Of a stretch of 64,000 nt of DNA, positions 19,594 to 21,095 are shown piece after piece. Numbering within the stretch: position 1 is the first letter of the stretch; each line of letters begins with the position of its first letter. Location: NCBI RefSeq assembly GCF_001580045.1, contig NZ_LSZP01000032.1, positions 62,001-126,000 on the forward strand, read 5' to 3'. The stretch is from Cephaloticoccus capnophilus. GTDB lineage: Bacteria; Verrucomicrobiota; Verrucomicrobiia; Opitutales; Opitutaceae. The notes under the pieces were generated by a model. It saw only the letters and a program-made list of their open reading frames with translations. It ran no database searches and was not told the DNA's origin. Both the position numbers and the translations under genes were made by a program.

Positions 19594-19646
19594 TTGACAA
19601 GCGAAACCCGCCCCACCTTCCTCCCTCCCCTCGTTAAGAAAAGACG
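19594..19646 (+). promoter_or_regulatory. Candidate promoter and leader region of the orphan attenuator
   Basis: A perfect TTGACA lies at 19594-19599. No good -10 hexamer sits at standard spacing, so the promoter call is tentative. An AAGAAAAG purine stretch (19637-19644) just before the ATG could serve as the ribosome-binding site. Confidence 0.35.
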
Positions 19647-19763
19647 ATGACTCCCTCCGCGAACACGATTCTCAGCCGCTCGGCCCATGACGCCTCCTCC
19701 GTCGTGGTACTCTCCGCTGCTGCCGTCGTCGTCGCTATTAAAGCTACGCCGCGAGGGGCCTGA
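19647..19763 (+). CDS. Branched-chain amino acid type leader peptide (38 residues)
   Basis: ATG 19647 to TGA 19761-19763. The middle is a control-codon run: SSVVVLSAAAVVVAIK, with six Val, one Leu, one Ile and four Ala in 16 residues, the composition of ilvB/ilvG leader peptides in enterobacteria. The run ends just before a segment (19753-19759) that can pair with the left arm of the downstream terminator, exactly where attenuation requires it. The frame closes at TGA immediately after that segment. Unlike known ilv leaders, no ilv, leu or other biosynthetic gene follows. The next plus-strand gene starts 1.4 kb away, beyond a minus-strand gene. Confidence 0.75.
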   Translation: MTPSANTILSRSAHDASSVVVLSAAAVVVAIKATPRGA

Positions 19764-19829
19764 TCGTCGAACATCACCAGACACGCTGACAATCACCCGC
19801 CCCTCCGGTCAAAAGCCGGAGGTTTTTTT
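19753..19829 (+). promoter_or_regulatory. Transcription attenuator (antiterminator/terminator switch)
   Basis: Antiterminator: GAGGGGC at 19753-19759 is perfectly complementary to GCCCCTC at 19799-19805. Terminator: CCTCCGG 19802-19808, loop TCAAAAG, CCGGAGG 19816-19822, then seven T. The two structures share bases 19802-19805 and so exclude each other. A ribosome stalled in the Val run leaves the antiterminator free; a ribosome reaching the stop codon covers 19753-19759 and lets the terminator form. Confidence 0.8.
19802..19829 (+). terminator. Intrinsic terminator of the attenuator
   Basis: Perfect 7-bp GC stem, 7-base loop, run of seven T (19823-19829). Confidence 0.88.
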
Positions 19830-20189
19830 GTCCTCACGGCCAGCGACAGGAGTGGCGCCACACACGCTCAACCGCCACACCGCCATGCATCCTGCCACCG
19901 CCACCACGCCCTTCACTTTACTCTGGGCGTCGATCGCAAGAAACGAAGAAGACCCACCGCAGCGGTCACTCGCTCCGGCGCCGCGCGCCCTCGCACAACA
20001 GACGAGCCGCGCGCCAATGCCGACGGCTGCGCCCAAGGGGAGCTCCAGCCAATCAATCACACGCGCCACAGCGCAGCCCACAGACGCACGAGCACGGAGT
20101 GTGAGCACCCCTGCACGAAATGAGCGCGCCGCCGACGCCTTCATCCCTGCCGACTTTCTCGTTACGAATCTGCGGCCCGACCTGCTCGA
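19830..20189. other. 360-base interval after the attenuator, no recognisable gene
   Basis: A plus-strand frame (about 100 codons from ATG 19885) and an overlapping minus-strand frame are both open, but neither shows a known motif. Composition is Ala/Arg/Pro/Thr-rich, as expected from high-GC chance frames. This is where a target of the attenuator would be expected, so it may hold the decayed remains of a regulated gene. Confidence 0.4.
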
Positions 20190-21095
20190 CTAGTGAGCGG
20201 CAAGCGGAGCCTTCTCCCCAGCGCGCACCGCTATCGACAACACATTTTCTGAGGGCGGCAGTGGGCAAGTCGCGTAAGGCGTAAACGCGCAAGGCGGGTT
20301 AATCGCCTTGTTAAAATCGATGATTACGCGGCCCGACTCGTCGGGCGGATCGGCATAAACGAAACGCGCCGCGCCATAGGTCTCGTGCCCGCTCGTCTCA
20401 TCCGCGATGATGAAGAAGAGCGGTTCGCCGAGCGTCTCTTGGAGCGGCAGCAGTGCCAGCCGCTGGCCCTCGCGTTCGAAAACGGCACGGCCCAACACGA
20501 GTGCCTGCGACTCTTGTCCGAGCGTGTTGGTAATCGTGACCTCGCGCGGTGCAGCGAAAGCCTCCCACTCAGCCTCCACCCGCCAACTTTCGTCGGTCGG
20601 GAAACGCTCGATTCCCGCAAAGCCCCTGCGGCGCGGCGAAGCAGTATCCTGCACGCGAAGTGCCATCCGCCCGCCGCGCACGATCACGTAAAAACTCATC
20701 GAGCCGCACGAGACAGTCGTCGTCTGCCCACGCGGCCCGCGCCCTTGAGGGATGAGTTCTTCCGAAAGCACTTCGCGCCCATCGACTCGTACGCCCGCCC
20801 CCGGCGTCACGCGCAACATCACGCGCCCGCTGGGTTGTAGGTCGATTACACCGAGACTCAGAGGCCCAGCGCCGAGCACGATATCGTTACCTTCAGCAGT
20901 ACCGACCTGCTGCTCACCTTCGCTCAAGAAATGAAGCCCGATGAGCGAAAGCCAACCCTCGGCAGCCGTGAGCCGCGCCACTCGCTGTGCGTGCCACTCG
21001 GTAAGCTCCGCTTCATAGTCCCCGGGCGGGGACACTGCCAGCCCCGTCGCGAGTAATAACATGAAACAGAAAGCTCTTTGGGAAAACCGCAGCAT
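20190..21095 (-). CDS. DUF1684 domain protein, exported
   Basis: 301 residues with an N-terminal signal peptide (FCFMLLLATGLAVSPPG). The DUF1684 family signature is clear: early WHAQRVARLTAAEGWLSLIGLHFLSEG and the C-terminal RVIIDFNKAINPPCAFTPYATCPLPPSENVL. The central part contains a forkhead-associated-like beta sandwich (LPxSxGxxxLxPxG type; here GAGPLSLGVIDLQPSGRVMLRV). Biochemical function is unknown. No co-oriented neighbours within 100 bases. Confidence 0.88.
   Translation of the reverse strand: MLRFSQRAFCFMLLLATGLAVSPPGDYEAELTEWHAQRVARLTAAEGWLSLIGLHFLSEGEQQVGTAEGNDIVLGAGPLSLGVIDLQPSGRVMLRVTPGAGVRVDGREVLSEELIPQGRGPRGQTTTVSCGSMSFYVIVRGGRMALRVQDTASPRRRGFAGIERFPTDESWRVEAEWEAFAAPREVTITNTLGQESQALVLGRAVFEREGQRLALLPLQETLGEPLFFIIADETSGHETYGAARFVYADPPDESGRVIIDFNKAINPPCAFTPYATCPLPPSENVLSIAVRAGEKAPLAAH

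Follow-up and report, generated by a model that had tools for sequence, protein, structure and literature searches.

The window, that is, the whole stretch of 64,000 nucleotides analysed here (G000:C32, positions 62001-126000), derives from a 2.09-Mb draft genome of 66 contigs. On its forward strand, a predicted promoter (19594-19622, with TTGACA at 19594-19599 and, after a spacing of 17 nt, CTTCCT at 19617-19622) precedes an ORF of 38 codons (ATG at 19647, TGA at 19761-19763) encoding the leader peptide MTPSANTILSRSAHDASSVVVLSAAAVVVAIKATPRGA, in which valine runs are found at codons 19-21 and 27-29. Downstream, an intrinsic terminator (19802-19829) is formed by an 8-bp stem including one G-U pair (19802-19809 with 19815-19822) and seven T running to 19829, as deduced from pair counts and folding. 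The competing antiterminator is longer than the 7-bp core GAGGGGC/GCCCCTC (19753-19759/19799-19805) first noted, as it continues past a bulged C at 19752 with CCG/CGG and a G-U pair. Hence, its 5' arm (19748-19759; unprompted helix scan and pair counts) lies within the last leader codons, while its 3' arm (19799-19809; helix scan, pair counts and folding) overlaps the terminator 5' arm. When folded alone, the antiterminator segment reaches -28.4 kcal/mol (z -3.7) and the terminator segment -16.1 kcal/mol (z -2.75), in both cases beating nearly all shuffles. The leader TGA lies directly 3' of the antiterminator 5' arm, and a ribosome positioned at this stop would cover the arm. Behind the terminator, where the initial annotation had seen only 360 bases of unrecognised DNA, a conserved small ORF of 102 codons plus stop (19885-20193, forward strand, ending ..DFLVTNLRPDLLD) is present, which we propose as the regulated gene. 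It meets, tail to tail and with a 4-nt overlap, a minus-strand DUF1684 gene (20190-21095; Pfam PF07920, E 3.6e-45), which is a neighbour outside the unit, the gene at this place differing between genomes.

The attenuator unit was found in three genomes of the same genus by DNA search and subsequent alignment. A profile of the downstream ORF (A2) led to further leader copies, and a covariance model of the leader (R1, built from the 11 copies of alignment A3) matches 139 of the 252 Opitutaceae genomes at E<1e-6, counted as 146 listed rows minus seven second copies. Given this conservation, the unit is not a chance arrangement, and the leader, antiterminator and terminator initially annotated are all real. 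Outside the Opitutaceae, R1 gives weak matches alone, namely in four other genomes of the order (E about 3e-5 to 8e-5), and the named records from an exact pattern search with the window's terminator type are Opitutaceae, Opitutae or Verrucomicrobia MAGs. In Rfam, the window leader and seven tested relatives match no family above gathering score, loose thresholds yielding sub-threshold matches to unrelated families and nothing else. The same leader layout can be seen in about 105 relatives, with most peptides ending in ..APRG[VAFS] and valine as the richest residue in every leader class (18-24% of residues). An unprompted search of 100 aligned copies for helices in common recovered both the terminator and the antiterminator with its two parts; the other helices returned were trivial U-run pairings. 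Across these 100 sequences, 98.6% of the terminator cells are paired and 5 pairs have changed on both sides; for the antiterminator, the values are 91.1% (versus 51-58% when slid) and 8 cells, its count being the freer of the two because the alignment was fitted to a model holding the terminator stem only. Moreover, 92 of 105 units have a TTGAC(A) no more than 80 nt before the leader ATG and, with a spacer of 17 nt, a C-T-T-Y-Y-T box behind it. In the window as well as at the same place in the 92 units, this promoter-like -10 box is almost devoid of A. Most often, 41 nt separate the start of TTGACA from the leader ATG, placing the predicted transcript start only a few bases 5' of the ATG (near-leaderless); in the window this distance amounts to 53 nt.

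For assigning the switch, 111 leader copies from 105 genomes were read together with the genes directly 3' of them. In 24 copies this gene is ilvB, in 15 it encodes a class I/II aminotransferase and in four an MFS transporter, whereas 68 copies, including that of the window, are seemingly orphan. The check for ilvB behind the same leader, suggested with the initial annotation, was therefore positive, one of the 24 ilvB units belonging to the window's own genus (G007), and identifies the element as an ilv attenuator; its earlier designation as a branched-chain switch, more precisely a valine one, is well founded. Two hallmarks of the ilv type, a short leader ORF containing consecutive codons for the amino acid sensed and a mutually exclusive antiterminator and terminator, are found in the window and kept in relatives, while another, linkage to a branched-chain biosynthetic gene, is found in the 24 relatives and absent in the window's genome. 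The ilvB units carry a short IlvN of the AHAS-I type. Among 22 genomes tested, only G057, G007, G062 and G012 have this type of small subunit. The small-subunit query matches somewhere in every one of the 22, with weaker matches in the others, as would be expected if these have the longer IlvH type. In G012, ilvN follows the leader directly, without an intervening ilvB. The window's leader, as already observed, has no ilv or leu gene behind it, and the ilvB of the same genome, on contig C27, shows no such leader within 1.5 kb upstream. The genome also encodes class IV aminotransferases, the family of the branched-chain aminotransferase. The four MFS transporters behind leader copies (L164, L165, L168 and L169 in G013b, G258, G253b and G255b) are of unknown substrate. 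The aminotransferases resemble MocR-type proteins lacking the DNA-binding part. In ilvB and small-ORF units alike, a purine-rich GGAG/GGGG stretch is located about 15-30 nt before the start codon, often with an inverted repeat next to it, which may bring a distant ribosome site near the start or cover the start.

Together, orphan and aminotransferase units number 83, of which 81 are informative (exceptions are G225, at a contig end, and G012, where ilvN itself follows), and all 81 carry a small ORF of one family. The description of the locus as an orphan switch lacking a regulated gene hence does not hold. These ORFs comprise roughly 60-110 codons, start 38-86 nt downstream of where the leader match ends and span about 24 genera by genus code. 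An early profile of four small ORFs gave mostly chance matches past the first few, and it was the motif that led to the true copies. Of the 81, 69 were found by the strict HD[FML][LM] pattern (the window's by its known position), and 12 needed a relaxed motif chosen after inspection. The usual motif is HDFLVxNxRPDL; the window ORF, ending in ADFLVTNLRPDLLD, is without the leading histidine (ADFLV). In ungapped pairs, pN/pS is 0.53 in frame versus 1.17 and 1.23 in the other frames, and changes are distributed over the codon positions as 50:55:113, with pairwise dN/dS mostly between 0.2 and 0.7. The small ORF is under purifying selection; its middle part varies in both length and sequence. The small ORFs tested match no Pfam or NCBIfam family, an ACT domain being absent, and a search of a plasmid collection with one small ORF gave no match. 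For the window's small protein, AlphaFold predicts one weak helix and no fold (mean pLDDT 62.5, pTM 0.17).

Taken together, the locus is very probably an ilvB-type, ribosome-mediated transcription attenuator whose regulated gene, here and in most relatives, encodes the DFLVxNxRPDL small protein. This assignment draws on the parts of the switch, their conservation, the mutually exclusive helices, the selection on the ORF and the occurrence of the same leader before ilvB elsewhere, all of them readable at sequence level. By analogy with known attenuators, the switch would respond to valine. When valyl-tRNA is short, the ribosome would stall in the valine codons of the leader, leaving CCG-c-GAGGGGC free for pairing with GCCCCUCCGG; the antiterminator thus formed would block the terminator, and transcription would reach the small ORF. 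With plentiful valyl-tRNA, the ribosome would proceed to the stop codon and cover CCG-c-GAGGGGC, and transcription would end at 19829. Given the valine codons, the competing helices and the stop just past the antiterminator arm, valine shortage should consequently switch on the small ORF. The initial annotation had alternatively considered that the terminated leader RNA, here about 200 nt, or the leader peptide acts in trans, for which Sinorhizobium rnTrpL/peTrpL provides a reported precedent (PMC7298713), likewise an amino-acid attenuator of interest beyond enzyme genes in cis. However, the N-terminus of the leader peptide varies freely among the relatives, it is the bases of the cis switch that are conserved, and a downstream ORF is retained throughout. 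With this conserved gene in cis, trans action is no longer needed to explain the site and appears rather improbable.

The conserved end of the small ORF resembles the C-terminus of IlvN, the regulatory subunit of AHAS I (HDVLAVRQRPDLxxxFF; PDB 2lvw, 6lpi); for example, HDLLVLTQRPDLTPEFFPRL from G105 agrees with the IlvN composite HDVLAVRQRPDLTPEFFTRL in 15 of 20 positions. An IlvN C-terminal profile ranks the small ORFs over their own shuffles (Mann-Whitney p 5e-14, with related and thus non-independent sequences). For locating the source, real IlvB and IlvN proteins were cut into about 156 windows and scored against the small ORFs. The IlvN C-terminus came out top among these for a hand-picked subset of 20 small ORFs and, with four of five source proteins each, over all 81 small ORFs as well as for the window's genus. 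In 11 of 15 source/group tests, the three best windows are all from the IlvN C-terminus. In the four remaining tests, the IlvN C-terminus is rivalled or outscored by an IlvB window, usually one around residue 120 (KHNFLV), which leaves the source of the HDFLV part uncertain. Overall, genus g2 shows a strong likeness to IlvN and the window's genus a clear one, with the IlvB segment competing for some sources; against a general ORF database, the IlvN match is weak (E 2.3 and above), though repeated. A similarity to the start of IlvB at p<=0.01 is seen in six small ORFs from a few genera, the best being G030 with MKTQGATLTRSL..LPFLD, against a chance expectation of about one in 81. It is convincing in about these six of 81 sequences only and does not stand out in the whole set, the IlvB N-terminal profile giving no overall excess over all 81 (Mann-Whitney p 0.14). 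Unlike IlvN itself, the small ORF encodes no ACT domain and is at most an IlvN fragment. We consider it reasonably likely that the small protein is a relic of ilvB-ilvN, presumably an ancient in-frame fusion of both operon ends, the N-terminal part of which would since have worn away in most lineages. No gene order shared between ilvB loci and the loci with the small ORF was seen, and deletion in place is thus without support from gene order.

Regarding the leaders themselves, those of ilvB group apart from those of the small-ORF and aminotransferase units (9 changes versus 24.7 when shuffled), and constraining the ilvB leaders to one group improves the tree by 20 log units over a free search (AU p 0.71). 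Both results point to two old paralogous leader lineages, likely albeit not proven, so that the leaders before the small ORF would constitute a separate line and not the outcome of recent losses. The initial suggestion that the regulated gene was lost or moved accordingly survives in an ancient sense, in that the ORF looks like an ilvB-ilvN relic, but not as a recent event. A related view, namely that an ilv operon was lost, leaving the leader behind, and that the ORF after it is decaying debris without a role, would fit the similarity to ilvB-ilvN, the variable middle of the ORF and the location of the window genome's ilvB elsewhere without such a leader. Nevertheless, it is improbable, as no informative copy, in about 24 genus codes, has a disrupted ORF, pN/pS falls well under 1 in frame only, the attenuator helices remain paired, and the small-ORF and aminotransferase leaders group apart from the ilvB leaders. 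In aminotransferase units (L078, L069 and others), the small-ORF stop overlaps the enzyme start by ATGA or GTGA, but a main role in translational coupling or regulation of the next gene, rather than as a protein, is quite unlikely, since the ORF and its motif are retained in the window and in most orphan units, although the gene that follows there is unrelated or encoded on the opposite strand.

Attenuators sensing amino acids are usually interpreted as switches for biosynthetic enzymes, and the ivbL-ilvBN attenuator of E. coli combines a Val-rich leader peptide with an antiterminator overlapping an intrinsic terminator. Val-rich leaders with antiterminators overlapping terminators are also known from the uORF attenuators of Corynebacterium ilvBNC and ilvB-II (PMC11857589, PMC10272879). 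As in these systems, the 24 relatives described above have ilvB behind the leader and then a short IlvN. In contrast, the window and most relatives have a microprotein gene in the place of ilvB, apparently served by a separate paralogous leader lineage. The Rfam ilvB motifs (ilvB-OMG and others) likewise represent ilvB leaders whose ORFs abound in branched-chain codons (PMC10272879), but none of them matches the window leader or the seven relatives tested. With the terms used, a literature search revealed no paper joining attenuation with Opitutaceae or Verrucomicrobia, the nearest being those on the Corynebacterium ilvB leaders and peTrpL. Hence, the switch is of a known type, while its target is widespread in the family, uncharacterised and new to us.

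One leader family of the Opitutaceae, with paralogous copies, thus precedes ilvB, an aminotransferase, a transporter and, most often, a small protein under selection. Conserved microproteins for which an inducing condition, valine limitation, can be predicted are thereby available as a ready-made set, and an enzyme operon may here have been reduced to a regulatory peptide. From its descent and company, an action of the small protein on acetolactate synthase can tentatively be proposed. Specifically, a valine-attenuated microprotein derived from both AHAS I subunits might, though this is a speculative reading, modulate the acetolactate synthase that remains, for instance through mimicry of the IlvN tail. 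If true, a whole bacterial family would possess a second, protein-level arm of branched-chain control.
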